Source: Hyphomicrobiaceae bacterium (GTDB taxonomy: Bacteria > Pseudomonadota > Alphaproteobacteria > Rhizobiales > Hyphomicrobiaceae). Taken from it: a stretch of DNA of 64,000 nt. The translations under genes and the position numbers were made by a program. Where the stretch lies: assembly GCA_022844275.1 (NCBI GenBank), contig JALHMB010000004.1, forward strand, positions 248,001 through 312,000. Direction: 5' to 3'. The number at the start of each line of letters is the position of its first letter. Position 1 is the first letter of the stretch. Shown in pieces: positions 14,696-61,651 of the stretch. The notes beneath the pieces are model-generated. The model did no database searches. It was not told where the DNA came from and saw nothing but the letters and a program-made list of their open reading frames with translations.

Positions 14696-14759
14696 TCAGT
14701 ATCGGCGAATATGGATGTCTCCCGGATTGGCGGGATATGAGCAAGGCACAGAAGCTAGG

Positions 14760-15416: not shown

Positions 15417-15449
15417 TAGAGCGCATCTGCTCCGCTCTGGAGTTTCATC

Positions 15450-16733: not shown

Positions 16734-16739
16734 GCAGCG

Positions 16740-45194: not shown

Positions 45195-46028
45195 ATGAGC
45201 ACAACAAAAACATTCGCAGCGGATAACGATGCCAGACCCACGTGCGAACTGACCGGCAAGACGGCCATCATTACCGGTTCGACAAGCGGTATAGGTCTCG
45301 GAATTGCGCGCAGTCTGGCGCGCGCCGGTATGAATATCGTTCTCAATGGCTTCGGTACACCCGATGAAATCAAAGCCACGCGCTCGGCTCTTCCATTGGC
45401 CCGCGGCAGGGAGACCATCCACGATCCGGCCGACATGTCCAATGCGGATGAGATCGCGGCGATGGTCGGACGGGCGCGCAACGCATTCGGCTCAATAGAT
45501 GTGCTGGTCAACAACGCCGGCATTCAGCACGTCGAGGCGATCGAGACTTTCCCGCCGGAGCGCTGGAATGCGATCGTTGCGATCAATCTGACTGCAGCAT
45601 TCCACACCACACGCGCTGTCATCCCCGACATGAAAGCACGGAGCTGGGGCCGGATCATCAACGTCGCGTCAGCCCATGGTTTGATCGCGTCACCATTCAA
45701 GTCCGCTTACGTCGCCGCAAAGCATGGCTTGGTTGGTCTCACAAAGTCAGTAGCTCTGGAAACCGCTGAACACGGCATCACCGTCAACGCCATTTGTCCC
45801 GGCTATGTGCTCACACCTCTGGTGCAAAAGCAGATTCCGCAGACGGCTCGGGCGCGAGGGCTGACAGAGGATCAAGTCGTTCGCGACGTGATTCTGCACG
45901 CTCAGCCGACGCGTCGCTTCGTGACGACTGAGGAGCTCGGCGCCACAGCCGTGTTCCTCTGCTCTGAGGCGGCTGCCTCCATTACCGGTGCGGCGCTGCC
46001 AGTCGAAGGCGGCTGGACGGCTCAGTGA
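45195..46028 (+). CDS. bdhA: 3-hydroxybutyrate dehydrogenase (SDR)
   Basis: A 277-residue short-chain dehydrogenase. The NAD site is TAIITGSTSGIGLGIARSLA, then NNAGIQHV; the catalytic residues are S159 (NVASAHG), Y172 and K176 (SAYVAAKHG). QHVEAIETFPPERWNAIVAI, AYVAAKHGLVGLTKSVALET and CPGYVLTPLVQKQIP agree with D-3-hydroxybutyrate dehydrogenase of polyhydroxybutyrate turnover. The N terminus has about 18 extra residues before the core. It is followed after 20 bases by a patatin-like gene, a pairing known from other alphaproteobacterial bdhA loci. Confidence 0.88.
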   Translation: MSTTKTFAADNDARPTCELTGKTAIITGSTSGIGLGIARSLARAGMNIVLNGFGTPDEIKATRSALPLARGRETIHDPADMSNADEIAAMVGRARNAFGSIDVLVNNAGIQHVEAIETFPPERWNAIVAINLTAAFHTTRAVIPDMKARSWGRIINVASAHGLIASPFKSAYVAAKHGLVGLTKSVALETAEHGITVNAICPGYVLTPLVQKQIPQTARARGLTEDQVVRDVILHAQPTRRFVTTEELGATAVFLCSEAAASITGAALPVEGGWTAQ

Positions 46029-46048
46029 GCTGAACGGAGTGAGAGACA

Positions 46049-47191
46049 ATGAACGAAGTAGTTCCCGAGTCGAAGTTCCAGACGTGCGCGGCAATCAAGG
46101 AAGCCGGCCAGCTCGTCCTCGTGCTGCAAGGGGGCGGAGCACTGGGAGCATATCAAGCCGGCGTTTATCACGCGATGCATGATGCTGGTATCGAGCCCGA
46201 TTGGGTGATCGGCACATCGATCGGCGCCATCAATGCGAGCCTGATTTGCGGCAACGAACGTGCCGACAGACTGACCGCACTTCACGAGTTCTGGCATCGC
46301 GTTTCGCTAAGCGGCAACTGGCCGTCGTGGCCAGTCTATCCGCCGCTGTCACAAATCCTGAACTACTGGTCGATCCTGCACAGCGGCCTGCAGAGCTTCT
46401 TCGACCCCAATCCACTGGCATTCTGCGGCCCGCATGTTGATCTCGGCGCGGAGCGGGCAGGCTACTACTCGACGGAGCCGTTGCGGCGAACGCTCTCGGA
46501 TCTGGTCGACTTCGGTCTGATCAGCCGGGGCAAAATGCGGCTGACGGTCGGCGCTGCTCATGTGCGCACGAGCCAGATGCGCTATTTCGACAGTAAGGCC
46601 GATGAGCTGGACGTGCGGCACATCATGGCCTCGGGTGCCTTGCCGCCGGCATTTCCGGCCGTTCGGATCGATGGCGAACTCTATTGGGACGGCGGCATTC
46701 TCTCGAACACGCCGGCCGAGATCGTCTTCGACGAGTACCCGCGGCACAGCTCGCTAATTTTTGCCGTTCACATGTGGAACCCCATCGGGCAGGAGCCACG
46801 GACGATCTGGGAAGTGATGCACCGGCATAAGGACATCCAGTACTCGAGCCGCATCGCCAGCCACATAACCCGGCAGAAGCAGCTGCATCGGATGCGTCAT
46901 ATCATTGAGGAACTCGCTAGCTATGTCCCGGCGGCTGAACGCCAGAGCAAGCGAATTCAGGACATGCTGGCTTCTGGGTGCGATACGCGCATGCACGTCG
47001 TTCGCCTTCTGGCGCCGAGCCTGGAACACGAGGATCAGACCAAAGACGTCGACTTCAGCAAGGCTGGAATCCGGGCAAGATGGCGGGCGGGATACGAGAA
47101 TGCACAGCTCGCGATCAAGCAGGCTCCGTGGAGAGGCGAGTTCGACCAGATGGAGGGTGTGCTGTTGCACGAATTCGTGGGCACAGAATAG
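46049..47191 (+). CDS. patatin-like phospholipase family protein with DUF3734
   Basis: A 380-residue serine hydrolase. The oxyanion loop LVLQGGGALGAYQAGVYHA, the nucleophile elbow GTSIGAINASL (S57) and the Asp of the dyad in LYWDGGILSNTP are all present. The C-terminal third (after about residue 240: SRIASHITRQKQLHRMRHII) corresponds to the DUF3734 extension. A role in lipid or polyhydroxyalkanoate mobilisation fits the bdhA gene 20 bases upstream, but is inferred. Confidence 0.87.
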   Translation: MNEVVPESKFQTCAAIKEAGQLVLVLQGGGALGAYQAGVYHAMHDAGIEPDWVIGTSIGAINASLICGNERADRLTALHEFWHRVSLSGNWPSWPVYPPLSQILNYWSILHSGLQSFFDPNPLAFCGPHVDLGAERAGYYSTEPLRRTLSDLVDFGLISRGKMRLTVGAAHVRTSQMRYFDSKADELDVRHIMASGALPPAFPAVRIDGELYWDGGILSNTPAEIVFDEYPRHSSLIFAVHMWNPIGQEPRTIWEVMHRHKDIQYSSRIASHITRQKQLHRMRHIIEELASYVPAAERQSKRIQDMLASGCDTRMHVVRLLAPSLEHEDQTKDVDFSKAGIRARWRAGYENAQLAIKQAPWRGEFDQMEGVLLHEFVGTE

Positions 47192-47606
47192 CCTCGACTG
47201 AAGATCGCTCCTCAAGTTCAGGTTCAGTCATTGTCAGATAGCTTAGCACCCGCGATGCCCAACCGAAGTTGACGGCTAGCCTGGACATTGGTGCAAGCCA
47301 CCCACTGTAGCGCCTCCGGAACTAGGAACGCCGAATGTCCTTACTGGCCTTTGTCCAATAAGCAATGAATCACGCACCAGTCGCGCTCGATGACTTGGCG
47401 ATCAAACTCTGCGTATGTCCGTTTTCGGCCCACTTCGGCTGTCACCCACTGAGCTGACCACGCGTTTCGTTGGTGGCACGTTGCCTAAGGGCCAGGTACG
47501 GCCATGGGGTGATAGGTCTTGGACCTCTACATCAGCAGTGACCCAACGGCGCGGCGCCATCGAGAGATTGGGGCCGCACCGCCGGTCGAACAACTGTGGA
47601 GCCGGA
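47192..47606. other. gene-free stretch, possible decayed repeats
   Basis: About 415 bases without a credible gene. TGTCCTTACTGGCCTTTGTC (near 47336) and TGTCCGTTTTCGGCCCACTT (near 47415) share the TGTCC-pyrimidine pattern of degenerate intergenic sequences that I associate with Bradyrhizobium-like genomes. Confidence 0.4.
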
Positions 47607-48137
47607 TTAGTGGTGCTTGCGACGGGACGCTGAGCTGGACTTCGGCGGCAACATCACAGCGTCCACAACATGAATCACGCCGTTTGACGCGATGACGTCC
47701 GTCTTGACCACGTTCGCTCCAGAGGCCTTGACGCCCTTCCTGATATCGACCGCGATGTTGGAGCCCTGCACCGACTTGAGCCCGAACTGTTTAGCGCGGG
47801 CGCGCGTGATGCGGCCTGCGTCATACTTCCCCGGTACCACATGATATGTGAGGATCGCGGTAAGCTGCTTCTTGTTCTCAGGCTTTAGCAGCGTCTCGAG
47901 CGTGCCTGCGGGAAGCTTCGCAAAGGCATCGTCGGTTGGCGCGAATACCGTGAAGGGGCCCTTGCCCTTGAGTGTGTCGACCAAGTCCGCGGCCTTGATG
48001 GCCGCGACCAGCGTCTTGAACGACCCGGCCTTCTGAGCGGTATCCACAATGTCATCGGCTGCGTGCGCAGGCGGGGCGGCAAGAGCCACCCCGGACACTA
48101 CGACCAGCGCGGAAATGGTGCGTGCGAGAGCGAGCAT
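47607..48137 (-). CDS. secreted fasciclin (FAS1) domain protein
   Basis: A 176-residue protein with a Sec signal peptide ([20 protein letters not shown], cleaved near AHA). One FAS1 domain follows, with [20 protein letters not shown], the H1 motif [40 protein letters not shown] and the H2-like [14 protein letters not shown]. Such single-domain proteins act in adhesion or as exported proteins of unknown role. The last ten residues are basic and Ser/His-rich ([10 protein letters not shown]). Confidence 0.92.
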
Positions 48138-48231
48138 TTATTTGTTCCCTTCGAGTTCGGCTCGCCTGAATCGCTAGGCGAGAACTTAATTTCGAATACA
48201 TGGGCTTGAACGACAGAGCCCGGGAACTGGA

Positions 48232-48351
48232 TCACCTGCGCCGGTCGCGAAGCACCGGTGCGAGGCCAACGCCAGTCTGCGACATTTGATCCGCAGTCCA
48301 ATCCTTCCAACACTTCGTACAACCAGCACTGAAGGAAAAAAGTTTGGTCAT
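48232..48351 (-). CDS. possible 39-residue peptide with CxxC
   Basis: A short open frame, MTKLFSFSAGCTKCWKDWTA and 19 more residues, preceded by a near-perfect AGGAGG ribosome site (plus-strand GCCTCCTGA) about 7 bases before the ATG at 48351. The CTKCW motif could bind a metal or form a disulfide. Upstream of fasciclin on the same strand with a 94-base gap. No homology recognised, so this may be a real micro-protein or chance. Confidence 0.4.
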   Translation of the reverse strand: MTKLFSFSAGCTKCWKDWTADQMSQTGVGLAPVLRDRRR

Positions 48352-48609
48352 GATGATCGCCTCCTGAGAGCCATTAACCTCAGTGCTACTCATCAACTTG
48401 CTGTCGAGACATCTCGACTTCGGCGGTTCGCTCTGGCCGATACGGAGGTCGATTGATCGCAGGAAGTTCGCGGTCGGCGCAGCAGCGTGCCGCACGTCTC
48501 TGCAAGGCGCGCTCGGAGTGAGTTGGACTCCCCTATCAGCTCCGAGCGCTATATCAGCAAGCCAAAAATCGTGTGTTCGTCTCCGTTGGCGATGACCAAC
48601 ATGTGGTGG

Positions 48610-50250
48610 TCAGGGTACAGCAAGTGTCAACGTCAAGAGCAACACGAGCAGCACAACGCACATGCTGGCGATCGGCCATTGACGCAGATAGCTGTCGACA
48701 CGCTCGAATGTCGCGCCCAGGCTGAAGACGCTAGGCAGGCAGCGCTGGCCGATGGCAAGCACGTCACCTTCTGGAATGCGCGGCAGGCGAGTGTGCCACG
48801 GCCACAGGACAGCAGCCAAGAGACCTCCGGCAAGCATCGGCCATGACGCACTCCAAAGTTCCTCGGAAGACAGCACGGTGTTCCACGATGCAGCACCGAT
48901 GGTTGAAAGAAACATCCAAGGCAAAACCAGGGAAGCGACGGCTACCGTAAGCCAGGCGCCGACCAGAAGCGACGATGGTGGCTCTGTAGAGTCTTGTGCG
49001 GCGCTGGCGCTAAGGCGACGCAGGAAGTGTAGGACCAGGAGCGTCGTTCCCACCGCCGACAACTGTGCCAGTGTGCCGGCAAGCCCGTCACCGAGCGGGC
49101 CCTTGGCGACCAGCTTTGCGATTTGACCACCAGTCAAGGGAAGGCCTGCAAGGCCAAGCGCCAGCACTGCTGCGGGCACCATGACCAGCCAAGCGTTGCG
49201 CGGCAGTCGCGCCGACGCCGCTCCAAGGGCGAGGAACAAGCCGCCTTTGACCAGCACGTGGTGTACTGCGTAAAACGCTGCCGCGAGCGGAGCCGCCCGG
49301 TTGCCGGCGGCAAGCCCCATGCCGATGACCGCCGCTAGGAAACCCATTTGGCTCACGCTGGAGTATGCGAGAACAGCCGCCGGATTTGCCTGCGTGATGC
49401 CGATGCCGACACCATAGAAGGCCGAGAAAAAGCCGACGGAGGCGAGGACCTCGCCCCAGCCCGGCAAAGCGGCTTCGAAGGGCAGGAAACGAATCAGACC
49501 GATCACGCCGGCTTTCACCGCCGCACCGCTCAGCACAGCGGCGGCAGGAATTGGCGCGGCCGAGTAGGTCAGCGGCATCCAGACGTGAAATGGAACGAGC
49601 CCCATCTTCAGCCCGAAGCCGAGGACAATGAGCAGCAGTGTGGTGTCGCGCCATGAAGATGTCGGAAGAGCAGCGACGGCGTCGCTTATCAGGAGGCTGC
49701 TGCCTGGCGCGCCTGCGGCCAGCAAAACAAATCCCATCAGCAGGAATGCCTCGCCGAGTAGGGCCAAGGCGACGTAGAGGCCAGCCGCCCGATGCGCTGC
49801 AGGCGTGTCGTCGTGCACGATGAGACCGTAGGCAGCGAGACTTACCAGGGTGAAGAACAGGTAGAAGCCGATCATGTCCGCGGCGAGGAACACACCGAGG
49901 CTACCGGCCAGCGTTGTCAGCCACCAGACGGTAAATGGCCTTTCTTGCGATTGGCTTCTCACCTGCGCGCGCGCCCAGATGCCGCCTGCACTCCAGAGCA
50001 ACGATGCAGCACCGAGGAGCATAGCTCCAGGTTTGTCGATGGTGATCCTGAGGCCGAGCAAAGCTTGCGGCAGGACAACGCTCGTATCTTCCGGGACCAT
50101 CATTGCCGCCAGAAGTGCAGGTAGCGGTGCCAACGGCAGCAAATTGGCCGTGTGTCCCGTCCCGCGTCGCGAGAGAGCCAGTGCCATCATCGCGAGGGGA
50201 ACCGCCAGCGCGGAAGCGAGCAACGTGCTTGCGATCATCGGCGTCATCAT
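48610..50250 (-). CDS. second proton-translocating antiporter subunit (MrpD/NuoL-like), TM5 Glu replaced
   Basis: A 546-residue polytopic protein of the ND2/ND4/ND5 family, last gene of the Mrp cluster. Conserved lysines and histidine of the half-channels are present: GFGLKMGLVPFHVWMPLTYS, AAVKAGVIGLIRF and AVHHVLVKGGLFLALGAASA. The acidic residue normally in TM5 (ELLTF or WELTS) is not seen: the region reads FYLFFTLVSLAAYGL, with Thr at that place. It probably takes the place of the missing NuoL-like half of MrpA. ATG 50250 overlaps the stop of the preceding subunit (ATGA). Confidence 0.85.
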   Translation of the reverse strand: MMTPMIASTLLASALAVPLAMMALALSRRGTGHTANLLPLAPLPALLAAMMVPEDTSVVLPQALLGLRITIDKPGAMLLGAASLLWSAGGIWARAQVRSQSQERPFTVWWLTTLAGSLGVFLAADMIGFYLFFTLVSLAAYGLIVHDDTPAAHRAAGLYVALALLGEAFLLMGFVLLAAGAPGSSLLISDAVAALPTSSWRDTTLLLIVLGFGLKMGLVPFHVWMPLTYSAAPIPAAAVLSGAAVKAGVIGLIRFLPFEAALPGWGEVLASVGFFSAFYGVGIGITQANPAAVLAYSSVSQMGFLAAVIGMGLAAGNRAAPLAAAFYAVHHVLVKGGLFLALGAASARLPRNAWLVMVPAAVLALGLAGLPLTGGQIAKLVAKGPLGDGLAGTLAQLSAVGTTLLVLHFLRRLSASAAQDSTEPPSSLLVGAWLTVAVASLVLPWMFLSTIGAASWNTVLSSEELWSASWPMLAGGLLAAVLWPWHTRLPRIPEGDVLAIGQRCLPSVFSLGATFERVDSYLRQWPIASMCVVLLVLLLTLTLAVP

Positions 50251-51743
50251 CAGCGGCCGATCTGTAGAAAGTCGGAAGAGCGAAGTGGCAAGAAGCCGAG
50301 CAGCACAGCGCATATAGCCAGCGACAGCGCAGCGAGTTCTCGCCGCATGGACACGGGAGCAAGCGACGCGAGTGGTGTCGCCGAGCTACCAAGTAGTCGG
50401 CCGAGAACCATGAAAATGTATCCGCCGGCAAGCAATCCTCCGACGATGATCACGGTTGCCCACCACCATTGCCCCTCCATGACCGTCGCCATGAGCAAAA
50501 GAGATTTGGCGACAAAGCCGCCGCTGGGCGGCACGCCAACGAGCGATAACCCCGACAAGCCGAAAGCCAACATTGTAATTGGAAGCCGCCGACCGATCCC
50601 GCCGAGTTCGGCGATGCGATCATGGCCTAGCGCCTCAGCAATCAGGCCGGCGGCCATGAACATCGCAGCCTTGGAGAGGGCATGGGAGAACAACTGGAGC
50701 CAGCCACCCGTCCACGCGATGCCGCTCCAGGCGATTCCCGCCGTGAGCCCGGCTGCAAGCGGAAATATGAAGAACAGGTAGCCGATCTGGGCGATCGTCG
50801 AATACGCGATCAGCAACTTGAGGCGCTTTTGACGCAACGCGAGGGCGCCGCCGACGAGGATTGCAGCCGCACCGAGGGCGGCGAGCAACTGCGCAGCGGC
50901 AAAGCTCAACAGGCCGGGCATCGCATCGAACCAGATCCGTACGATCAGGAAGAACGATCCTTTGACCACCAGTGCAGAAAGCAAGGCGCTGCCGGGAGCC
51001 GGTGCGCCCGCGTGCGCAGGCGGCAGCCACAGGTGCAGCGGGAAGAGCGCCGTCTTTGCCAGCAATCCCACCGTCATTAGCGAGGCCGCGATCAGAGTTG
51101 CGGGATCAGGCCGTACTCGCTCGGACAGCAGGCCAATGTCGAGCGTGCCGTAAGCCCCATAGATCATCGCCGCGCCCAGCAGGTAGAGAACGGAGCCAAT
51201 CAGGGCGAACAGCATATAGCGCAGCGCGGCCTCTATCGTTTCCTTCTGCCCCTTCAGGCAGACGAGTGGCACGGCCGCAAATGTCAAAAGCTCGAGAGCG
51301 ACATAGAGATTAAACAGGTCGGAGCCGAGCACGAGCGCGTTCAGCCCGCTCCAGATCGCGAAGAGCAACACCCAGAACACGACGGGGGAACGCGCTTCCG
51401 GGAGATCGGACGGCTGACTGAATTCGCCTTGGGCAAAGAGGCCCGTCGCGCACATCACGATTGCCGTTGTCAACATCATCGCGGCCGAGATCCCATCGGC
51501 GCGTAGCGCGATGCCGAGGGGAGGCGCCCAGTCTCCTACGACGTAGATCTGTGATTGCCCCCCCTGCGCGACAGCGATCAAGACCGCGACCGCGATCCCG
51601 AATCCGACAGGCAAAACGACACATGCGAGGCGCTCGACGCCGCGACCACTTGTGACGAACGACAACATTATACCTGCGACCGGCCACATGATCGCCAGCA
51701 CCAGCAGGTAACCGCTTGCCGTCGTCGTGATCGTCGTCGACAT
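50250..51743 (-). CDS. mrpD-like: Mrp antiporter subunit D (proton-translocating)
   Basis: A 497-residue membrane protein with about fourteen segments. It has the full set of proton-path residues: the TM5 Glu in LFNLYVALELLTFAAVPLV, the TM7 Lys in LLAKTALFPLHLWLPPAHAG, Lys in ALVVKGSFFLIVRIW and His/Lys in QLFSHALSKAAMFMAAGL. Mrp complexes exchange cytoplasmic Na+ or K+ for H+. The start overlaps the MrpC stop by one base (TGATG). It is followed by the second D-like subunit. Confidence 0.9.
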   Translation of the reverse strand: MSTTITTTASGYLLVLAIMWPVAGIMLSFVTSGRGVERLACVVLPVGFGIAVAVLIAVAQGGQSQIYVVGDWAPPLGIALRADGISAAMMLTTAIVMCATGLFAQGEFSQPSDLPEARSPVVFWVLLFAIWSGLNALVLGSDLFNLYVALELLTFAAVPLVCLKGQKETIEAALRYMLFALIGSVLYLLGAAMIYGAYGTLDIGLLSERVRPDPATLIAASLMTVGLLAKTALFPLHLWLPPAHAGAPAPGSALLSALVVKGSFFLIVRIWFDAMPGLLSFAAAQLLAALGAAAILVGGALALRQKRLKLLIAYSTIAQIGYLFFIFPLAAGLTAGIAWSGIAWTGGWLQLFSHALSKAAMFMAAGLIAEALGHDRIAELGGIGRRLPITMLAFGLSGLSLVGVPPSGGFVAKSLLLMATVMEGQWWWATVIIVGGLLAGGYIFMVLGRLLGSSATPLASLAPVSMRRELAALSLAICAVLLGFLPLRSSDFLQIGR

Positions 51744-52084
51744 CAGGAGTGATCTCCATCCTCCTGCGCCTTGGAGGCGGCACCCAAACCTGAGGTGACC
51801 TCGTCAGTCAGCTTGCGAAGCCGCAGCACCAATGCAACGGCCAGTGCTGTCGCCGAGAAGGAGACTACGATGCCCGTGATGACCAGCGCCTGCGGTACGG
51901 GATCGGCGCCGAGCCCTGCGGCGGCGCCCCTGCGAGCGACGACGCCGAAGAACAGGAACACGCCGCTGCCGAGAAGATTGAAGGCGAGTATCTTCCGAAG
52001 TGGCTCGGGACGAACGATCAGGCCAAACAATCCGAGGCCCACCAGCGCGGCGCTACAGAGCCCGAACAGCGTCGCACTGTTCAT
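51743..52084 (-). CDS. mrpC-like: Mrp antiporter subunit C (NuoK-like)
   Basis: A 113-residue protein with three membrane helices: ATLFGLCSAALVGLGLFGLI, ILAFNLLGSGVFLFFGVVAR and a third with DPVPQALVITGIVVSFSATA, the MrpC/NuoK signature in which DPxPQALVLTxIVI is diagnostic. ATG 52084 overlaps the preceding gene's stop (ATGA). Homology and the overlap fix the start, though the frame stays open upstream. Confidence 0.9.
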   Translation of the reverse strand: MNSATLFGLCSAALVGLGLFGLIVRPEPLRKILAFNLLGSGVFLFFGVVARRGAAAGLGADPVPQALVITGIVVSFSATALAVALVLRLRKLTDEVTSGLGAASKAQEDGDHS

Positions 52085-53022
52085 GGCTGATGGTTCCGTT
52101 CGGGCGGACCCGCTGCCAATAGACCAAGTGTGGCGCCGATCGAGAGAGCCAACCCGATCTCGACGACAACGATCAGCGGTTTTGCGTAGCCCGCAGGATA
52201 CGCAAGAAAGCCGGCCGCCAGTGCGAAGCCTGCCAGTCCGACCATCAGGAAGAGTACCGGTCCGGCAACAAGCAGCCACCGCAGTCGAAGGCAGCTAATC
52301 GGGGGGGCACGCACGACACCCGCCATCATGACGAGGAGCCACATGACGGCCAGCACGGTGCCACCCTGGAATGCGCCGCCCGGATTGGAGGCCCCGGTCC
52401 AGGTCATGTAGATGGCGAACACGATCCCGAAAGGTGGCAGGACCTGGGCGAAGAAGACAAGAATGTCATTCGGCGGCGCGTAGGAGTCCAATGCTGGCAC
52501 ACCGCCCCACAAGCGATCCGGCGCCAGCGACCATACACCCAGAAGCGCGAGCAACAGGACGACCTTTTCGAGCAGAGTATCGAGCGCGCGAAAGGCAAAC
52601 AGAACACCTGCAACGGGATTACCGAGGCCAGTCTCGGGCAGATTGGCCATGGCCATGGGCGCGAGCGTCGGAGCGACATCGGCTGGCAAAAGAACGACAA
52701 CCGCGAGGCCCGACGTTATCGCCGCGCAAAGCACTCCGGACAGAAGACGAATTGGGAAGGAGGGAAGTGTTGACGTGACCTCGGTCTGGCGCAGGCGCGC
52801 CGCTGCGCTCAACAACAACATTCCCGTTATTCCGCTGCCGATCGCGGCCTCCGTCAGCGCGACGTCGACGGCCGACAGCCTGACCCAGGCAATCGCCATC
52901 AGCAGCCCGTAGACGACAAAGATAATGACAGCGACCATAGTACCCTGCGCCACCATCATCCAACCGCCGACGGCTATGAGTAGCATTGCAGTGCCGATGT
53001 CGAACGCGAAAGGTATGGTCAT
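52081..53022 (-). CDS. Mrp subunit: DUF4040 (MrpA C-terminal/MbhD) - MbhE - MrpB fusion
   Basis: A 313-residue membrane protein joining parts that are usually in MrpA and MrpB. Residues about 10-80 are the DUF4040/MbhD part (VYGLLMAIAWVRLSAVDVAL and TEAAIGSGITGMLLLSAAA). A middle MbhE-like region includes NPVAGVLFAFRALDTLLEKV. The last third is MrpB-like, with PPFGIVFAIYMTWTGASNPG and GAFQGGTVLAVMWLLVMMAG. So the cluster has the C-terminal half of MrpA but not its large NuoL-like half, as in archaeal Mbh complexes. Start 53022 has TGGAGCC 8 bases upstream. Confidence 0.85.
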   Translation of the reverse strand: MTIPFAFDIGTAMLLIAVGGWMMVAQGTMVAVIIFVVYGLLMAIAWVRLSAVDVALTEAAIGSGITGMLLLSAAARLRQTEVTSTLPSFPIRLLSGVLCAAITSGLAVVVLLPADVAPTLAPMAMANLPETGLGNPVAGVLFAFRALDTLLEKVVLLLALLGVWSLAPDRLWGGVPALDSYAPPNDILVFFAQVLPPFGIVFAIYMTWTGASNPGGAFQGGTVLAVMWLLVMMAGVVRAPPISCLRLRWLLVAGPVLFLMVGLAGFALAAGFLAYPAGYAKPLIVVVEIGLALSIGATLGLLAAGPPERNHQP

Positions 53023-53035
53023 GCGCGCGGCTCCA

Positions 53036-53311
53036 CTATCGGATCGCCCGCGCAATGAGCTGCGTGACGATCGCACCGGATATGAGAGCGAGCAGCCACA
53101 CGCTCACCAGCTTCAGCGCGCCGAGCAGCCCGCTGGCGTGTGGCAGCAAGCCCAGAACCACGAGACCAAGCCCAAGATTGTCCACCTTGGTGAGCGCGTG
53201 CAGGCGAGTCAGAACATCGGGAAAGCGCAGCAACCCGACCGTGCCCGCGATGAAGAATAACGTGCCTGCCGAGACTGCAAGAATGGTGAGTGTATCGAGA
53301 ATGGTGATCAT
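53036..53311 (-). CDS. mrpG-like: Mrp antiporter subunit G
   Basis: A 91-residue protein with three membrane helices. The MrpG signature GTVGLLRFPDVLTRLHALTK is at about residues 22-41, then DNLGLGLVVLGLL. ATG 53311 overlaps the MrpF stop by 4 bases. The subunit stabilises the Mrp complex; it has no known catalytic role. Confidence 0.92.
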   Translation of the reverse strand: MITILDTLTILAVSAGTLFFIAGTVGLLRFPDVLTRLHALTKVDNLGLGLVVLGLLPHASGLLGALKLVSVWLLALISGAIVTQLIARAIR

Positions 53312-53592
53312 TCATCGTCACCCTTCGTGACCTTCGGGACGTCACCGCGCGCACCGCCGACAAAGCCGACGGATGCGAAGGCGGCGAGCAGCGCCAACAT
53401 CAATGCGACATCGGCAATGGATGGCGTGGCGGTAGCTACGGAAAGCAGGAGCAGCACGGCCACGCCGCCCGTGCCGATGAGCTGCGCCGCCATCATGCAA
53501 TCAGCGGCTTCCCCGCTGTAGAAAATGCGGAACAGCCCAACCGCTATCGACGTCAGCACGAATCCTGCGGCCGCGAACAGGAAGCTAGCCAT
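53308..53592 (-). CDS. mrpF-like: Mrp antiporter subunit F
   Basis: A 94-residue protein with three membrane segments and the MrpF plan: FRIFYSGEAADCMMAAQLIG around the conserved Asp, then PSIADVALMLALLAAFASVG. The start at 53592 overlaps the end of the MrpE gene by 8 bases. Its C terminus is charged (DVPKVTKGDDE). Confidence 0.9.
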   Translation of the reverse strand: MASFLFAAAGFVLTSIAVGLFRIFYSGEAADCMMAAQLIGTGGVAVLLLLSVATATPSIADVALMLALLAAFASVGFVGGARGDVPKVTKGDDE

Positions 53593-54118
53593 GGCTCTCC
53601 ACTCTTCCGAGCGCCTGCAAGAACCGAGCTTCCTCTCCGGCGAGCTGCTGTGCCACGGGCCAGCTCACATCCAGGCAATGGATGATGAGATCGCCGTCCT
53701 TGTTGAATCCGGATGGAAGCAGGCCCGGTTGCAGGCTCGCCATGGTGCAGAACGCGCTTCTTGTCGTGCCCGCCGGCGATTCTGGCCGGTAGATCTTCAC
53801 GCCCGGGCGCAGTGGCAATCGAGGATCGAGAGCCCGCCATGCGGTGTCAAATCCGGCAACAATGGACTGGTGCAGAAATCGCATCAGCATCCGGACAAGC
53901 AGGATGGGGTGCAATTTCTGCCGTCCCGGGGGCAACAAAAGCAGGCTGGTCCAGGATGCAATCGCTGCTGCCAGTATCCCCGCGGGAATATCGGCGGCAC
54001 TGAGGCCGGTGAGGATCAGCCAAAACGCGAGAAAGCCCGCCGACCGAGCAAATGCGGAAGAGATCCTATGTGCAGGAGCATTGGCGGTATTATGCATGTC
54101 AGGCTCGTTCAAGGTCAT
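53585..54118 (-). CDS. mrpE-like: Mrp antiporter subunit E
   Basis: A 177-residue protein with an N-terminal pair of membrane segments (GFLAFWLILTGLSAADIPAG, then ASWTSLLLLP) and a cytoplasmic domain with RPGVKIYRPE and LQPGLLPSGFNKDGDLIIHC, as in MrpE/MnhE. The residue before it, LDVSWPV, is the end of the conserved region. ATG 54118 overlaps the RND pump stop by 4 bases, so translation of the antiporter is coupled to the pump. Starting at MHNTAN (54097) is possible. Confidence 0.87.
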   Translation of the reverse strand: MTLNEPDMHNTANAPAHRISSAFARSAGFLAFWLILTGLSAADIPAGILAAAIASWTSLLLLPPGRQKLHPILLVRMLMRFLHQSIVAGFDTAWRALDPRLPLRPGVKIYRPESPAGTTRSAFCTMASLQPGLLPSGFNKDGDLIIHCLDVSWPVAQQLAGEEARFLQALGRVESHG

Positions 54119-57100
54119 GTCGCGGCGATTGCTGGCTTGGAAGCAGCCGCCTCCCTCCAACCGAACCAAGTCACATACAGCGTGGGGAGAAAGATCAGCG
54201 TGAGAAGGGTTGCGACGAGCAAGCCTCCCATGATCGCAAGTGCCATCGGACCCCAGAACACCGTGGGCGCGATCGGGATCATGCCCAGAACCGTCGATAC
54301 CGCGGTCAACATGATGGGGCGGAAGCGGGCGCTGCTCGCATCGACTGTGGCTCGATAGATGTCCTTCCCTTGGGCTCTTTCTGAATCGATCTGCCCGATC
54401 AGGATGACGGCATTCTTCGTGATCATGCCGATGAGCGCGAGAATTCCAAGAATGGCGACGAAACCCAGGGGTTGGCGGAACAAGAGCAGGGCCGCGACGA
54501 CGCCGATGAGACCGAGCGGCGCAACACTGAGCACGATGACCAGGCGCTGGAAGGATCGCAGTTGCAACATGAGCACCGTCAGCATGATGAGGAGCATGGC
54601 CGGGACCACGGCGATCACGGAGGCCTGAGACTTTTGGCTCTCCTCCACCGTGCCGCCCGTTACGATGCTGTAAAACTGCGGGAGATCCTTGCGCAAAGCT
54701 TCGATCGTCGGCGCCAGTGCCGTGACGACCGTCTCCGGCAGCGTTCCTGGGGTGACATCCGCCTGAACGGTCAGCGTCGGCACCCGGTCGCGTCGCCAGA
54801 CCAGAGGATAGTCCTGCTTGTATTCGAATGTCGCGAACTGGCTGAGGGGAACAGTGCGTCCGCCCGGCAGCGGCACCTGCAGCGTGCGCAGGGTGGCGAG
54901 CGATACCCGTTGCTCGTCCGTCGCGCGTGCAACAACGTCGACGAGATATATATCGTCGCGCACCTGCGTGACGGAGGTGCCGGAGATGACGGTATTTAGG
55001 ACGCTCGCCAAGGCCTGGGAGCTCAATCCCAGCAGGCGAGCCTCGTCCTGATCGATGCGAATGCCGACCAGTCTCTCTGGTTCGATCCAGTCGAAGTTTA
55101 TGTGTGCCGCGAGCGGATTCGCGGCGACGACCTGCGCCAGCTTGAGTGCATATTCCCGAACTTGCGCGAGGTCGGGGCCGCTCACGCGATACTGCACAGG
55201 CCAGCCGACAGGCGGCCCGAGCTCCAGCGGATACACGCGGCTGTTGGTGTCGGGGAAATCCTTGGCGAGCACATTCTCGAGCTTTGCGCGCAGCCGCTCG
55301 CGCGCGGCAACGTCCTTCGCCACGATCACGGACTGCGCAAAGAAAGCATTCGGCAACTGCACATTGAGGGGCAGGTAAAAGCGAATGGCCCCCCTGCCGA
55401 CATAGGTGCTCCAACGCACAATATCCGGATCATCCTTGAGCACGGCATCGAAGCGCCGAGCCATGCTCTCGCTCGCATGGATGGAGGCATTCTGAGGGAG
55501 GGCGAGATCGACCATGATCTCAGGGCGATCAGACGAAGGAAAGAACTGCCGCGGAACCAGGGGAAGTGCCAGGAACGACGCAACGAACAAAGCCAGCGTC
55601 AGCGGGATGGTCACCCACTTGCCGCGTATGGCCAGATCAAGGAAGCGTTGATAGCTCTGCAGCACCCGGCTGGGCTTCGCGGGCTCGCTTGTGTCTGGTG
55701 CCTTGAGGAGAGCCACTCCCAAGAGCGGCGCGAACAGGACGGCAACGAACCAGGAAACAACGAGAGCGATGCCGACGACTGCGAAGAGCGAGAAGGTGTA
55801 TTCGCCGGCTGAGCTCGCCGCAAAGCCAACCGGAACGAAACCGGCAATCGTAACGAGCGTGCCGGACAGCATGGCGAAAGCATAGGTGCGGAAAGCAAAA
55901 GTCCCCGCCTGTACCTTGTCGTCACCAAGTGCGAGCCGGCTGAGCATCGCATCGGTGGTCGTCATCGCGTCGTCGACAAGCAGGGCCAGCGCGATGATCA
56001 ACGCGCCCAGGGATATGCGCTGCATGTCGATACTGACCATCTGCATGACCGAGAACACGATGGCGAGCGTTAGCGGTATGGCGAGCGCGATCACCAGTCC
56101 CGGGCGCACACCGAGACTGATGAAGCTCACTACCAGAATGATCGCGACCGCCTGCCACAGCGACGCCATGAATTCGGCGATGGCGCTCTTCACCGTCACT
56201 GCCTGATCCGCCACCTGCTTCGGCTTGATGCCGATCGGCAGATCCGCTGTGATCTCGCTTATGGTCCGATCGATGTTCCGGCCCAATGCAAGAATATCTC
56301 CCCCGTCGCGCATGGCGATGGCGAGGCCGATAGCCGGTTCCCCATCGACGCGGAACAGAGGCTGTGGCGGATCGGCGAACCCGCGTCGAATCTGAGCGAT
56401 GTCGCTGAGGCGGAGCATGCGGCCACCCGCGACGAAATTGGTGCTCGCCACGTCCTGCTCGGATCGAAAGGCACCGGAGACGCGAAGTGCGAGTGTTTCG
56501 TATCCGGTCTGGATCGTGCCGGCGGGTTGCACGATGTTCTGCGCCTGGAGCGCCGCGATCAAGGCCGAGCGGTCGACACCAAGACCTGCAAGCTCCTTGA
56601 TGGAGAACTCGACGAAGATCCTCTCGTCCTGTGCGCCGAGGATCTCGATCTTGGAGACATCCGGCACATTCAGCAGCTTTGACCGGATATCTTCGACGTA
56701 GTCGCGCAGTTCGCGATGTGTAAAGCCGTCGGCCGTGAAGCCATAGATGATCCCGAACGTATCGCCGAATTCGTCATTGAAGCCCGGTCCGACGATGCCC
56801 GCCGGAAGCGTGTGACGGATATCTCCGATGCTCTTGCGTACGTGATACCAGATGTCGGGAACTTCCTTGGCCGTCGTATTGCCTAGCAGGTTGACGAAGA
56901 TGGTCGTCCTGCCGGCACTCGTGAAGCTGCGCAGGAAATCGAGCTTGGGCGTCTCCTGCAACTTGCGCTCGAGGCGCTCAGTGACCTGCTTCAGCGTGTC
57001 GTCGACGCTCGCTCCGGGCCATGCGGCCTGTACGACCATCGTCTTGATGATGAAGGATGGGTCTTCACTGCGTCCAAGGCGGAAGTAGGAAGCGATCCCG

Positions 57101-57180
57101 GCGATCACCATCACGATCATGAAGTACACGATGACCGAGCGGTTCCTGAGCGCCCACGCCGACAGATTGAAATCGCTCAT
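54115..57180 (-). CDS. RND efflux pump permease (HAE1-type)
   Basis: A 1021-residue inner-membrane pump with the AcrB architecture: twelve membrane segments and two large periplasmic loops. The proton-relay residues are all present: the Asp pair D403/D404 in ALALLVDDAMTTTDAML (TM4), Lys in IGMITKNAVILIGQID (TM10) and Arg in RFRPIMLTAVSTVLGMIPI (TM11). The porter-domain sequence resembles the small-molecule HAE1 group that often works with a MexH-like adaptor. It overlaps both the adaptor gene (4 bases) and MrpE (4 bases). No TolC-type outer-membrane gene is in the window, so it presumably uses one encoded elsewhere. Substrate unknown. Confidence 0.93.
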   Translation of the reverse strand: MSDFNLSAWALRNRSVIVYFMIVMVIAGIASYFRLGRSEDPSFIIKTMVVQAAWPGASVDDTLKQVTERLERKLQETPKLDFLRSFTSAGRTTIFVNLLGNTTAKEVPDIWYHVRKSIGDIRHTLPAGIVGPGFNDEFGDTFGIIYGFTADGFTHRELRDYVEDIRSKLLNVPDVSKIEILGAQDERIFVEFSIKELAGLGVDRSALIAALQAQNIVQPAGTIQTGYETLALRVSGAFRSEQDVASTNFVAGGRMLRLSDIAQIRRGFADPPQPLFRVDGEPAIGLAIAMRDGGDILALGRNIDRTISEITADLPIGIKPKQVADQAVTVKSAIAEFMASLWQAVAIILVVSFISLGVRPGLVIALAIPLTLAIVFSVMQMVSIDMQRISLGALIIALALLVDDAMTTTDAMLSRLALGDDKVQAGTFAFRTYAFAMLSGTLVTIAGFVPVGFAASSAGEYTFSLFAVVGIALVVSWFVAVLFAPLLGVALLKAPDTSEPAKPSRVLQSYQRFLDLAIRGKWVTIPLTLALFVASFLALPLVPRQFFPSSDRPEIMVDLALPQNASIHASESMARRFDAVLKDDPDIVRWSTYVGRGAIRFYLPLNVQLPNAFFAQSVIVAKDVAARERLRAKLENVLAKDFPDTNSRVYPLELGPPVGWPVQYRVSGPDLAQVREYALKLAQVVAANPLAAHINFDWIEPERLVGIRIDQDEARLLGLSSQALASVLNTVISGTSVTQVRDDIYLVDVVARATDEQRVSLATLRTLQVPLPGGRTVPLSQFATFEYKQDYPLVWRRDRVPTLTVQADVTPGTLPETVVTALAPTIEALRKDLPQFYSIVTGGTVEESQKSQASVIAVVPAMLLIMLTVLMLQLRSFQRLVIVLSVAPLGLIGVVAALLLFRQPLGFVAILGILALIGMITKNAVILIGQIDSERAQGKDIYRATVDASSARFRPIMLTAVSTVLGMIPIAPTVFWGPMALAIMGGLLVATLLTLIFLPTLYVTWFGWREAAASKPAIAAT

Positions 57181-58295
57181 GGTGTCGATCCGAGCAGTCG
57201 GACCGTTTGCCCCGGATGCAGTGCCTGCACGCCTGCGGTAACGATGATCTCACCGGCACTGAGCCCGCCGGATACAGCGACGACGGCCTGATCGAATCTC
57301 TGTACCTCGACGTTTCTGAGCGATACGGCACGGCTCGTCGGATCGACGATCCAGACGGCGGCTTGACGATTGAATTTCGTCAACGCGGTCGCTGGAAGCT
57401 CGAAAGTGGCGAGGGCGTCCTGCTCTATGCGTCCGACAACGGTGGCGCCGAGCCGCATGGCCGCAGGAGGATCCGTCAGACCGACCTTGACCTCGAACGT
57501 GCGGGTCACCGGGTCGGCTTGGGGCGCGATCTCGCGGACGCGCCCGCGCGCCGTCACCGATGGGGCGTCGGCAAGGCTTATGCTGACTTCGGGATTGCTT
57601 GGTACCGAGCGGATCAATTGAGCTGGCACGTCGAAAACAGCGTCGCGTCCATCCTGGCGCGCCAGCTTGACGATCATCTGTCCTGCTTGTGCGATCTCGC
57701 CTGAAGCAGGCCCCAAGGCCGTCAAGACACCCGGAGCATCCGCTCTGAGCTCCGTGAAGCTCACCAAGTCCTGAGCGATTTTCAGTTGCGCTTCGGCGGC
57801 ATCCAATTGCGACTGTGTGGTCTGCAATGCCTGTGCAGCATCGTCGTGGTTCGCCCGTGTCGTCCAACCCTGCTTGAGGAGCGTGTCCTGGCGCTCGAAG
57901 TGGTTGCGCGCCTGCGTCAACTGCCCACGTGCGGCCGCGAGATTGGCTTGTGCCGCCCGCAAAGCGTTCAGCTCGTTCTGCGGCTCGAGGCGCGCGACCA
58001 GTTGTCCGGTCTTGACCCGGTCACCGAGATTGACGTCCCTCTCGAGCACCCGTCCTGAGATGCGGAATGCCAGGGATACTTCATCGTCAGATTCAATGCG
58101 GCCGGTGAGCGTGATCGGCGCGACTGCAACTCGCTTCTCGGCCACGACGGTGCGTACTGGCCTGGCGTGAGATTGCGTCGTCTCTGCTTCCGGCTGACAT
58201 GCCGCGAGGATCGCCGGGAGTATCAGTGCGAGCGCCGTCTGCTGCCAGCTGCTTACCCAGGAGAGCGATACCGATGGGATCAAGCTGCGCTCCAT
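57177..58295 (-). CDS. RND efflux periplasmic adaptor, lipoprotein
   Basis: A 372-residue membrane-fusion protein. A lipoprotein signal ends in ALILPAILAAC, so the mature Cys is lipidated and anchored in the inner membrane. A beta-barrel/lipoyl core (ISGRVLERDVNLGDRVKTGQ and LRADAPGVLTALGPASGEI) flanks a helical hairpin (residues about 110-170, AQANLAAARGQLTQARNHFE). It links the RND pump to an outer-membrane channel. I chose ATG 58295, which has CGGAG 10 bases upstream; a GTG at 58316 is possible. The stop overlaps the pump start by 4 bases. It is the first gene of the efflux/antiporter operon. Confidence 0.9.
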   Translation of the reverse strand: MERSLIPSVSLSWVSSWQQTALALILPAILAACQPEAETTQSHARPVRTVVAEKRVAVAPITLTGRIESDDEVSLAFRISGRVLERDVNLGDRVKTGQLVARLEPQNELNALRAAQANLAAARGQLTQARNHFERQDTLLKQGWTTRANHDDAAQALQTTQSQLDAAEAQLKIAQDLVSFTELRADAPGVLTALGPASGEIAQAGQMIVKLARQDGRDAVFDVPAQLIRSVPSNPEVSISLADAPSVTARGRVREIAPQADPVTRTFEVKVGLTDPPAAMRLGATVVGRIEQDALATFELPATALTKFNRQAAVWIVDPTSRAVSLRNVEVQRFDQAVVAVSGGLSAGEIIVTAGVQALHPGQTVRLLGSTP

Positions 58296-58548
58296 GGGCG
58301 GCGAACTCCGGATCACGGTGCAGGAACGGCAAGTGCGGGACTTCCTGTAGTTCTGAAGTCAGGCCGAGACTGCTGCCGGATACGTAGTTTGCCCATCAGG
58401 TCAAACCCTGGAACGCCAGATAGAGCACACTAGGAAACTAACGCTCTCGTTTTGCGCAGCGCGATGTTGGAAGCAGACGTGCCCGGTGACTTGCGCCTCG
58501 AGCGCATGCCCAGCAGAGTGACGTCAATCTCGGGGAGTGGCGCGCTAT

Positions 58549-58833
58549 TTACCAACGCCAGTCGCACACACGGCGCCCTCGGTGCCACCAGCAGACCCTT
58601 CTACGGCGTCTGCGCCTGCGGCGTGGGTCGATAATAACGACCTGAGCCTTCTCAACGAGCTGTTCGCGCTCTTGCGGGATATCGGGGGGAGGAGGAAGCG
58701 GCGCGGCGTGCGCTTCCCGTACGAAAATGTTCGGTAGCATCGTAGACGCGGTTGCAGCGCCCAAACTCAGTATCAACATCTTGCGACGATCAATGCGTGT
58801 CACTTGGCTCTCTCCCGAGGCGGCAACATCCAT
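58549..58833 (-). CDS. small exported Arg-rich protein
   Basis: A 94-residue protein with a signal-like N terminus (RRKMLILSLGAATASTMLPN, with a Tat-like Arg pair, cleaved near AHA), a short Pro-rich stretch (APLPPPPDIPQ) and a C terminus with nine consecutive Arg. The last residues, VCWWHRGRRVCDWRW, contain two Cys and four Trp. Similar small Arg/Trp-rich exported proteins occur in Hyphomicrobiales; their role is not known to me. It lies between the DHA2 transporter and the adaptor gene on the same strand, with gaps of 100 and 253 bases. Confidence 0.6.
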   Translation of the reverse strand: MDVAASGESQVTRIDRRKMLILSLGAATASTMLPNIFVREAHAAPLPPPPDIPQEREQLVEKAQVVIIDPRRRRRRRRRVCWWHRGRRVCDWRW

Positions 58834-58933
58834 CCCCTTGCGTCGAGCTTAGTGAGCCGACGAAGAACGTGTACATGCGAGAAAACCCCGAAACTGTCGG
58901 GTAAGTTGCCCGACGGCGGGTATGCTTGAATAG

Positions 58934-60556
58934 TCAACGAGACGGTATTTCTCCGGGTCGATAGTTGGGCAATCGTCTGGCTGGAATGATTGTCACGAAT
59001 GACAGGCACGCCAGGATGAGGAGGCCGATCTTGAGGGCTCCCAGTCTTGCCTCCGTATTGACGCGGACGGCCTCTGCCACCTGTTCTGGAGTCGCGTTCG
59101 TGCCTGCAAGTATGCTTCCGAGGCGGTCGTTGCTGACGAATGTTATGCTGTCGAGATTGACCTGCGACTGAAGCTCTGCGGACAAGGTCGGGCTCCCAGC
59201 GATCCTGCTGAGCACAGCCGCGCTGAGCAGACCGACGAGCAGCGCTCCAGCGACTGCCGTTCCGACGGCAGCGGCGAGGTTCTGCGTGGTGCCACGCAGC
59301 GATCCGACATCTCCTGCAAGCTCCTTGGGTGACGCTGTCACTAACACATTGAATAGCAGCGTCACCAAAGAGCCTTGTCCTATGCCGAACAGAACCAGGC
59401 CGAGCAGTACGGGGAATTCGCTCCAGTCGTTACGCACGACAAAGGCGAGCCAAACCAGTGCCGCCGTACAGAGCGCGAAGCCGAACCGGCCGATCTGTCG
59501 GGGCGTAAAGCGATCGTAAAAGCGGACGATCAGCATAGCGGTGAAGAATACAGTCAGGTTGAAAGGCATCATCGCAATGGCGGTTGCGAGGGGCGAACGA
59601 CCCTGCACGATCTGAATGTAAAGGGGCACGGAGAAGTTCAGCGCGGCTTCGAGCGCGACCACCGAGAACAGCGCATAGACCGCTGCGCGCTCCTCGGGCG
59701 AATCGATGACCTCAAGAGCGAGAAGTGGCGTCTTTCCGGCTGGCTGGCGTCGATGGGTCCATGCAAGAAAGATCTGCCCGAGCACGATACCTGTGACGAT
59801 CATGATCGGTGCGGGCGACAGGCCCAAGATACTGAAGGGTGCTGCCGCGCTCGCCAGTGCCAAACCCCAGCCGTTCAGGTTGTTGAAGCCGAAGCTGATG
59901 AGAATGATGGCTGTTGCCGCCAGGCAGACTCCGATCACGTCGATTCCGACTTCGGGTCGGCCGGGGACTGACTTAAGGCGGAAGCTCAGAACGAAGACTA
60001 TGGCCGAAGCGGCAACCAGGATGCCAAAGGCCGGGCGCCAGCCGATAAATGTCCCGAATACGCCGCCGACCACGAAAGCCAGAACCCCGGCCGCAGCGCG
60101 CGCTGAACCGAGGGCGCCGACCGCCGTGGCCTGCTGCCGGCCGCTGTAGTTCTCGGCAATAAGTGCGACGAGCGAGGGCACGATGACGGAAGCCGAAACG
60201 CCGCATAGTGCCTGGGCCGAGATCATGACGGTCGCAGTGGGGCTGAGGGTCATCAATATCTGCGAGATGCAGAAGAGCACGACGGCCGCCCGGAACACAC
60301 GCGCTGCGCCGTATCGCTGCGCGAGCTTGGCGCCGAGCATGACGAACCCCGCGACCAGCATCGAATAAGCAACGATGCCGGTTGCCACGGTCGTCGGTGA
60401 CACGTTGAAGCTCTCGACCATGCCACTCAGCGCCACCGGCAAGGAGGCGACGTTGAAGGACATGATCATCTGGCCGAGCGCAATGGCGATCATCGGCACC
60501 CAAGACGCTTGGGCTTCGTCGCGGGCATCTTGGGCTACATAGGTTTCAACAGCCAT
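58934..60556 (-). CDS. MFS transporter, DHA2 (14-segment) drug-efflux type
   Basis: A 540-residue membrane protein with about fourteen segments. Recognisable motifs are KLAQRYGAARVFRAAVVLFC (loop after TM2), the SAQALCGVSASVIVPSLVAL stretch of TM4 and ALGSARAAAGVLAFVVGGVF (TM5 motif C-like region). The C-terminal tail has LSFVTIIPARRLPNYRPGEI. ATG 60556 has TTGGAG 7 bases upstream; starts at 60562 or 60577 are less likely. It lies 57 bases after the glutaminase gene on the same strand, probably one transcript. Substrate unknown. Confidence 0.87.
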   Translation of the reverse strand: MAVETYVAQDARDEAQASWVPMIAIALGQMIMSFNVASLPVALSGMVESFNVSPTTVATGIVAYSMLVAGFVMLGAKLAQRYGAARVFRAAVVLFCISQILMTLSPTATVMISAQALCGVSASVIVPSLVALIAENYSGRQQATAVGALGSARAAAGVLAFVVGGVFGTFIGWRPAFGILVAASAIVFVLSFRLKSVPGRPEVGIDVIGVCLAATAIILISFGFNNLNGWGLALASAAAPFSILGLSPAPIMIVTGIVLGQIFLAWTHRRQPAGKTPLLALEVIDSPEERAAVYALFSVVALEAALNFSVPLYIQIVQGRSPLATAIAMMPFNLTVFFTAMLIVRFYDRFTPRQIGRFGFALCTAALVWLAFVVRNDWSEFPVLLGLVLFGIGQGSLVTLLFNVLVTASPKELAGDVGSLRGTTQNLAAAVGTAVAGALLVGLLSAAVLSRIAGSPTLSAELQSQVNLDSITFVSNDRLGSILAGTNATPEQVAEAVRVNTEARLGALKIGLLILACLSFVTIIPARRLPNYRPGEIPSR

Positions 60557-60613
60557 TGTCATCTCCAAGAGCTGCACGGCACTTGTGATCGCGGTCGAGG
60601 CGCGGCTTGCGCC

Positions 60614-61651
60614 TCAGTCAACAGGCTTTGATACGAAGAGATCCATTCCCAGCCGGTGCGAGAGATACTTCGCGACCAACTGTCCCTTGACGCTATTGCC
60701 AGCGCTATCGAGAGGAGGAGCGAAGGTGCCGAGACCGCCCTTGCCCGGCGATACCGTCACTATGCCGCCGCCTATCCCGCTCTTACCCGGCAGGCCGATC
60801 TCGAAAAGCCAATCGCCAGACGTTTCGTAAAGACCCGCAGTTGCCATGATGGCCAATGAGTAGTGGCAGACGGAATGGCTGACGACGCGCTTCCTGGTGA
60901 TTGGGTTGACTCCGCCGTCGGCGAGAGTTGCGCCCATGATAGCGAGGTCTTTTGCACTGACATTGAGTGAGCACTGCTTTGTGTAGAGGTCTGTGGCTTC
61001 AGCCGGATCGGAGTAGATGCATCCGACGCTCTGAAGCAGCTGAGCAATGCTGCGATTGCGGAAATTCGTCTCGGAGGCGGAAGCGTAGACCTCCTCGTTC
61101 AACGGCAGCTCGCGACCGGCAAAGCGCGACAGACCCTCGTGGATGAACTTCCACTTCTCCATGATATCCCGACCGGGGGCGAGACTGGTCGTCGCGATCG
61201 CGCCGGCATTGACCATGGGATTGGTACGCCCGTCGTGGCTTCCTTCGATCGCAGATAGAGAATTGAAGGGCTTCCCGGTGCTGTTGGCGCCGAGCTTCGC
61301 GCGTGCCTCGTCGGGGCCGATCAGGTCGCAGATGAGCGCGAACACGAACGGCTTTGATACGCTCATAATCGAGAATTCGTAGTCGGCATCACCGGCGTTG
61401 TGGACGCGCCCGGCAGTATCGACCACGCACACGCCGAAGAGATCGGCTGGAACCCGAGCAAGGGCCGGGTAGACATCCGAATTCTGCCCATCTGTCGTCG
61501 ATCTGAACCGGGCATACGCACTCTCGATCAATGCCTGCACCTCTTCCGAGGCCGGCAGATGACCCGTTGAGACGAAGCCGCTGTCCTCCATGGGAACCGA
61601 TCCTGTAGAGGGCGACGCGGCAGCTGCCATTGCGATGGATGTTCTGGTCAA
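60614..61651 (-). CDS. glsA: glutaminase
   Basis: A 345-residue serine-dependent glutaminase that releases ammonia from glutamine. The Ser-x-x-Lys motif is S97-K100 (FSIMSVSKPFVF). It also has GKPFNSLSAIEGSHDGRTNP, MVNAGAIATTSLAPG with the Asn/Ala typical of the family, TLADGGVNPITRKRVVS and GKSGIGGGIVTVSPGKGGLG near the C terminus. The family core begins about residue 35, so the first 30 residues are an extension or the start is later (Met21). Glutaminase next to a transporter suggests ammonia release for acid neutralisation or glutamate supply. Confidence 0.93.
   Translation of the reverse strand: MTRTSIAMAAAASPSTGSVPMEDSGFVSTGHLPASEEVQALIESAYARFRSTTDGQNSDVYPALARVPADLFGVCVVDTAGRVHNAGDADYEFSIMSVSKPFVFALICDLIGPDEARAKLGANSTGKPFNSLSAIEGSHDGRTNPMVNAGAIATTSLAPGRDIMEKWKFIHEGLSRFAGRELPLNEEVYASASETNFRNRSIAQLLQSVGCIYSDPAEATDLYTKQCSLNVSAKDLAIMGATLADGGVNPITRKRVVSHSVCHYSLAIMATAGLYETSGDWLFEIGLPGKSGIGGGIVTVSPGKGGLGTFAPPLDSAGNSVKGQLVAKYLSHRLGMDLFVSKPVD

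Follow-up and report, generated by a model that had tools for sequence, protein, structure and literature searches.

A TriC/MexK-related RND pump recurs beside a reduced Mrp-type antiporter cluster in one alphaproteobacterial order

The window analyzed here is a 64,000-nucleotide stretch of DNA from a Hyphomicrobiaceae bacterium. Between positions 48610 and 58295 it carries nine open reading frames, all on the minus strand, which Pfam and NCBIfam models assigned to the series adaptor-RND-MrpE-F-G-A'-B-C-D-D2, confirming the array named in the original prediction. The first gene encodes an RND periplasmic adaptor, a probable lipoprotein with the lipobox pattern LAAC (57177-58295; TIGR01730, 219.7 bits; HlyD_D23), and the second an RND permease related to TriC and MexK with a lysine, Lys922, in its relay region (54115-57180; PF00873, 494.8 bits). 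These are followed by mrpE (53585-54118; PF01899, MNHE, 61.6 bits), mrpF (53308-53592; PF04066, MrpF_PhaF, 28.9 bits), mrpG (53036-53311; PF03334, PhaG_MnhG_YufB, 77.5 bits), a gene that fuses an MbhD-like part of MrpA to MrpB in one protein, A'-B (52081-53022; PF13244, MbhD, and PF04039, MnhB), and mrpC (51743-52084; PF00420, Oxidored_q2, 61.4 bits). The last two products both match PF00361 (Proton_antipo_M): MrpD (50250-51743; best solved relative 6cfw_H) has a full set of charged residues, and D2 (48610-50250) is an antiporter-like subunit without the antiporter glutamate, with threonine at that position. No hydrogenase subunits were found among the nine genes or eight scanned neighbors in the window.

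From the adaptor to D2, successive genes overlap by 4, 4, 8 and 4 bases, are separated by 13 bases between G and A'-B, and then overlap by 4, 1 and 1 bases. The description of seven overlaps of 1-8 bases and a single gap was thus correct, with the lengths depending on the chosen starts (D2 has an alternative in-frame ATG at 50313), and the overlaps bear out, for the window, the idea that the genes are arranged for co-translation. A pattern scan of 47400-59000 for promoters and terminators stayed at chance level (promoter-like, 1 match versus 2.5 expected; terminator-like, 7 versus 9.3 expected), and its sole promoter-like match lay at the start of mrpE. Because the genes overlap, we infer a single transcript, and the two modules probably form one nine-gene operon in the window.

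To follow the adjacency of RND and mrpE across genera, we used the A'-B protein to search contigs of named genomes and obtained six loci, from Hyphomicrobium sp. CS1BSMeth3, a Hyphomicrobiaceae MAG, an alphaproteobacterial MAG, Aestuariivirga litoralis and two Aestuariivirga MAGs; all six had adaptor-RND-E-F-G-A'B-C-D-D2 in the order of the window. The first two loci belong to genomes of the window's genus, so its order is probably Hyphomicrobiales. A profile of eight A'-B proteins matched 29 of 397 genomes of this order at 1e-30, with up to five candidates scored per genome here and in the class search below. The 17 best matches (at least 346 bits, window included) and three named loci outside the 397-genome sample make up 20 distinct loci of the window's Mrp lineage, with L037-L039 taken as identical to L025, L026 and L028; the next matches, at 332 bits and below, were other Mrp types. 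Around every one of these 20 loci, the examined stretch held an adaptor together with a close RND that shared 62-89% identity with that of the window. The loci were picked through A'-B, so the presence of the RND is a fair test, on loci that are related by descent. RND matches in the window's 6.08 Mb genome number 16, one of them a close match, and simple arithmetic from this density gives a chance of ∼5% for an RND less than 10 kb from a given point. With 20/20 found against ∼5% expected, the adjacency goes beyond chance, and it recurs across genera and families, contrary to the first ground for refutation named with the original prediction, an adjacency limited to this genome.

The arrangement of the two modules varied. 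The RND lies directly before mrpE on one strand in eight of the 20 loci (window, L023-L028, L040); in two others (L031, L041) it shares the strand of mrpE but precedes it by 4-5 kb. Divergent layouts comprised seven loci with the adaptor within ∼1 kb of mrpE (L042, L046-L051) and one with the modules 5.6 kb apart (L043). In the remaining two, the RND is downstream, either on the same strand (L045, seen whole as L132) or convergent (L044, seen whole as L131). With the window's junction kept in 8/20, we rejected strict operon conservation. Since divergent, convergent and separated layouts occur, translational or physical coupling is unlikely as a conserved feature. Over 18 loci, RND distances correlated with those of A'-B (r 0.84) and D (r 0.78), with none of 2000 permutations as high; this fits joint descent of the modules but may merely mirror descent of their hosts. 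In a sample of the class, A'-B matched at 1e-30 in six of 385 Alphaproteobacteria genomes and exceeded 200 bits solely in the window's genome. Spread by plasmids was also rejected: among 72,556 plasmid records, A'-B had two matches at 1e-20, each below 60% identity.

As a control on the Mrp side, we examined 12 loci of a sister Mrp lineage (L015, L032-L034, L052-L059), typically ordered E-F-G-A'B-C-D-D'-D2. No RND was found near any of the 12 in the examined stretches, three of which are on contigs shorter than 9 kb and two of which (L056, L057) end before the end of the cluster; nor did the stretches examined around six loci with other Mrp types (L014, L035, L036, L060-L062) contain one. Chance adjacency was rejected on these grounds, with 20/20 loci set against 0/12 in the sister lineage and at most 1/41 among the control RND loci described below. 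The window's own genome holds a sister-type paralogue on contig C13 (L015:4624-11604; E-F-G-A'B-C-D-D'-D2, with a D2 42% identical and no RND nearby). The same contig carries, elsewhere, only pieces of an Mrp D-type gene and a partial MrpE match (C13:75224-76811, part of L017), which look like an incomplete cluster.

The RND-linked cluster encodes Mrp subunits E, F, G, B, C and D. Of MrpA it has the C-terminal part, and it lacks a full-length MrpA with the antiporter-like N-terminal part; its A' is the MbhD-type part fused to B, and the separate D2 may stand in for the N-terminal part of MrpA. MrpB-G and C-terminal MrpA are homologous to those of Mrp (CPA3) antiporters and of the membrane portion of Mbh hydrogenase, which resembles Mrp (6cfw, 7qru, 6z16), D matches MbhH and MrpD best, and the cation-site glutamates are retained as in Mrp/Mbh. 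Unlike those systems, the window complex has no full-length MrpA, an A' fused to B, a glutamate-less D2 and a co-encoded RND. Cyanobacterial Mrp operons with two MrpD genes resemble the window in having two D-type genes in one operon; we know of no RND beside them. The D subunit keeps its tested charged residues, including the Lys/Glu pair, in 20/20 loci, whereas the pair is found in none of the 19 D2 copies of the window's lineage. Across 29 D2 copies, 19 from the window's lineage and 10 from its sister, the glutamate of the pair is always replaced, by Thr, Ala, Ser or Val; the other tested residues are kept, save one lysine that is Asn in three copies. D2 itself is present in 19/20 loci, the exception being L049, where a weak match falls inside D only and other genes follow D. 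The three-D sister lineage of the same order shares the series E-F-G-A'B-C-D...D2 and a glutamate-less D2, but has one extra D-type subunit with the glutamate and no RND in the stretches examined at its 12 loci. As judged from these residues, only D carries the full pair in the RND-linked complex, versus two D-type subunits in the sister lineage. All 20 loci retain glutamates E58 and E152 of A'-B, and we take E152 to be, by motif, the counterpart of MrpA E780. E780 is described in an excerpt of PMC9568556, and E58 was equated with MbhD E69/MrpA E706 from an excerpt of PMC7419157.

We then approached the linkage from the RND side. A profile of eight linked RNDs was run against the 397 order genomes, with up to two candidates scored per genome here and in the class and phylum searches below; it matched at least 159 genomes at 1e-280, with listed order matches reaching down to ∼1071 bits. 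We inspected all 31 RNDs that reach 1690 bits, comprising 17 Mrp-linked ones and 14 others (L063-L076). Mrp genes lie near 19 of the 31: 17 are of the window's type and two of another type, in which the RND sits beside E-F-A'-G-B-C and then a protein of ∼1040 residues with two antiporter stretches (L066:13475-18592, L068:2804-8353). L079 (RND at 1480 bits; Mrp at 11641-17149) is a third RND beside this second Mrp type. For the other 12 of the 31, no Mrp gene was detected in ∼8 kb on each side, and this, together with an RND directly before mrpE in 8/20 loci, speaks against the obligate co-expression that had been suggested. The 41 control RND loci (L077, L078, L080, L083-L120) were hand-picked down the RND profile list and include 23 two-adaptor, 12 MexK-like and six other loci. 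None has a D-type Mrp gene, and only L094 shows an MrpG-like gene, placed at one end of its stretch. The contrast of 19/31 with 1/41 gave a Fisher value of 2e-8, which ignores relatedness and hand picking and serves as a guide only. Searches of 385 class genomes and 349 phylum genomes beyond the order yielded seven close RNDs (L121-L127), none with Mrp genes nearby in stretches of which three end at contig ends; L121 has a patatin/GntP-like pair and a Lys/Asp relay. Possible remnants in the window's genome are a partial RND match (C1:941366-943555, 47%) and, at C3:29298-29660, a short piece of RND sequence interrupted by two stop codons.

In a tree of 76 RNDs, made by a quick method with a simple model, the linked and neighborhood RNDs formed one clade of 35 (SH-aLRT 100), within which L066, L068 and L079 lay apart from one another. 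L094 (G730) fell outside this clade on a long, unsure branch. This locus has a one-adaptor RND, 52% identical, with arginine deiminase and amino acid permeases, and is perhaps an independent case of the same neighborhood.

By sequence, the closest solved relatives of the window's RND are 6vej (1190 bits), which we take to be TriC, and MexK (985 bits), both of Pseudomonas aeruginosa. The window's locus has one adaptor, whereas TriABC has two, as do 23 of the 41 control RND loci, and the window's RND is linked to Mrp, unlike TriC and MexK. The ACR_tran domain and the relay residues D403, D404, K922, R952, R954 and T959, taken as RND HAE-1 criteria and matched by motif to D407, D408, K940, R971 and T978, were all found, in agreement with the original prediction of an intact relay. 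None of the 76 RNDs varies at the two TM4 aspartates, Asn923, Arg952 or Arg954, and 75 of them retain Thr959, which L079 replaces with Ala. Position 922 in TM10, equated by motif with AcrB K940, holds Lys in 34 sequences and Arg in the other 42; position 410 is Asp in all 34 Lys922 rows and Glu in 41 of the 42 Arg rows, the sole Arg922-Asp410 exception being the Mrp-linked L043. The relay region reads Lys/Asp in the window and Arg/Glu in TriC and MexK. According to an excerpt of PMC8277102, AcrB E414 pairs with R971, and position 410 corresponds to E414 by motif. We considered whether this signature is tied to Mrp linkage and rejected the idea, since the signature follows the RND lineage whether Mrp is present or absent and the linked L043 deviates. 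Judging from these alignments, the RND belongs to a lineage of its own beside TriC/MexK, with one adaptor and usually Lys rather than Arg in the relay.

Other genes also recurred around these RNDs. We compared 37 RND-lineage loci, of which 20 were found via Mrp (so that Mrp counts among them are biased) and 17 were not chosen via Mrp, using stretches of 26 kb for the window and ∼20 kb or less for the others. Patatin-like phospholipase was found in 20/37 versus 0/41 control loci, the window's copy being distant (30%), and GntP-like permease in 21/37 versus 0/41. Arginine deiminase (13/37 versus 1/41), amino acid permease (12/37 versus 1/41), DUF900 hydrolase (12/37 versus 2/41), AI-2E permeases (two queries; 11 and 8 of 37 versus none of 41 for each) and DUF1269 (4/37 versus 0/41) followed. 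Fisher values (patatin, 8e-9; arginine deiminase, 2e-4) again ignore relatedness and hand picking and are a guide only. The order of the partners changes among the 37 loci, and the window is without close copies of the recurrent ones. Excerpts of two reports describe AI-2E family members as Na+(Li+)/H+ antiporters (PMC5379678) and one member as an AI-2 exporter (PMC9134010). Directly upstream of the array, on the same strand, the window has genes for an MFS transporter (58934-60577) and a glutaminase (60614-61651), neither of which was found in the other 36 lineage loci. Downstream of D2 are a short-chain dehydrogenase with a patatin of DUF3734 type (45195-47191, plus strand) and a fasciclin-domain protein (47607-48137, minus strand). 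An acid-resistance theme based on the glutaminase was rejected, as its match in 1/37 loci is the window itself; a pH theme via arginine deiminase (13/37) is possible but unproven.

On balance, we think it reasonably probable that these loci reflect a conserved association of a TriC/MexK-related, one-adaptor RND with a reduced Mbh-type Mrp complex, as separate machines tied functionally through a shared stress. The best reading is of a larger, often reshuffled neighborhood of transport and pH-related genes in one alphaproteobacterial order, with the two modules fused into a probable operon in the window. The RND would export an amphiphilic or weak-acid compound on the proton gradient, and the Mrp complex would swap Na+ or K+ for H+ to correct cytoplasmic pH and cation content. 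Both would serve the same stress, such as salt, alkali or an uncoupler-like compound, as two separate machines under shared control; we infer the stress, the substrate, the ion and the direction alike. The adaptor and RND accompany Mrp in 20/20 loci across six layouts, and the RND is linked to two Mrp types; the neighbors (arginine deiminase, permeases, patatin) fit ion, pH or envelope work. Against this stand the 12/31 closest RNDs and the 7/7 outside the order with no Mrp detected, and the variable layouts. It is also conceivable, if somewhat unlikely, that RND and Mrp stay together through their place in a region that gathers transport and stress genes, with no functional tie between the two. 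Several other gene families do share the neighborhood, and RNDs with no detected Mrp are likewise found next to patatin/GntP-like or arginine deiminase genes; however, the RND is kept in 20/20 loci despite changes of order and strand, and the second Mrp type beside it in L066, L068 and L079 likewise argues against mere hitch-hiking.

Because the link survives such changes and occurs with two Mrp types, we favor a shared role over a shared complex. That RND and Mrp build one complex, with the gene overlaps fixing its stoichiometry, would suit the overlapping genes of the window, but we regard it as very improbable: in 12/20 loci the modules are 4-6 kb apart, divergent or convergent, D2 as a possible linker is glutamate-less in the RND-less sister lineage too, and L049 keeps the RND without D2. 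We also know of no contact between an RND trimer and an Mrp complex. Of the functional or physical coupling first proposed, we favor the functional part; divergent, convergent and separated layouts count against the physical part. Coupling through energy, in which the pump runs on a cation gradient that Mrp sets up or a reversed Mrp refills the proton gradient of the pump, is unlikely in our view. The linkage itself and the altered relay region, with Lys922 and Asp410 instead of Arg and Glu, point that way, and an excerpt of PMC8277102 records one RND driven by sodium motive force. However, all proton relay residues are present, and a Na+-linked pump, though conceivable, is unsupported; Lys at position 922 is the state of AcrB, which is proton-driven; and the signature also occurs in RNDs without Mrp, while the Mrp-linked L043 has Arg. 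Mrp is modeled as an electrogenic antiporter that draws on the membrane potential (excerpt of PMC9568556), and it would then compete with the pump for energy unless the pump uses the cation or Mrp reverses; that the antiporter sustains the gradient for export is accordingly doubtful. A two-part energy circuit is similarly improbable; here the reduced Mrp and the altered-relay RND would share an ion currency, Mrp would locally power or pH-buffer export, and the glutamate-less D2 would mark a class of Mrp complexes that have just one full antiporter channel.

Studies of RND pumps and of Mrp antiporters usually run separately. Our search of the open-access literature, which covers few subscription papers, found no description of an RND-Mrp operon, consistent with the initial impression that no system of this composition had been described. 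The component families are known, but three things look like new variants: the conserved pairing of RND with Mrp, the RND lineage with one adaptor and a Lys relay, and the Mrp form with D and a glutamate-less D2. Overall, RND and Mrp, most likely two separate machines with a shared role, keep a conserved, repeatedly rearranged link that points to a stress needing solute export and cation or pH balance together, and their loci offer a system for asking whether both machines share an ion gradient. The RND lineage, with its different relay region, and the Mrp lineage, with its one complete antiporter subunit, would also both be useful for the question of Mrp stoichiometry, which an excerpt of PMC9568556 states to be unknown.
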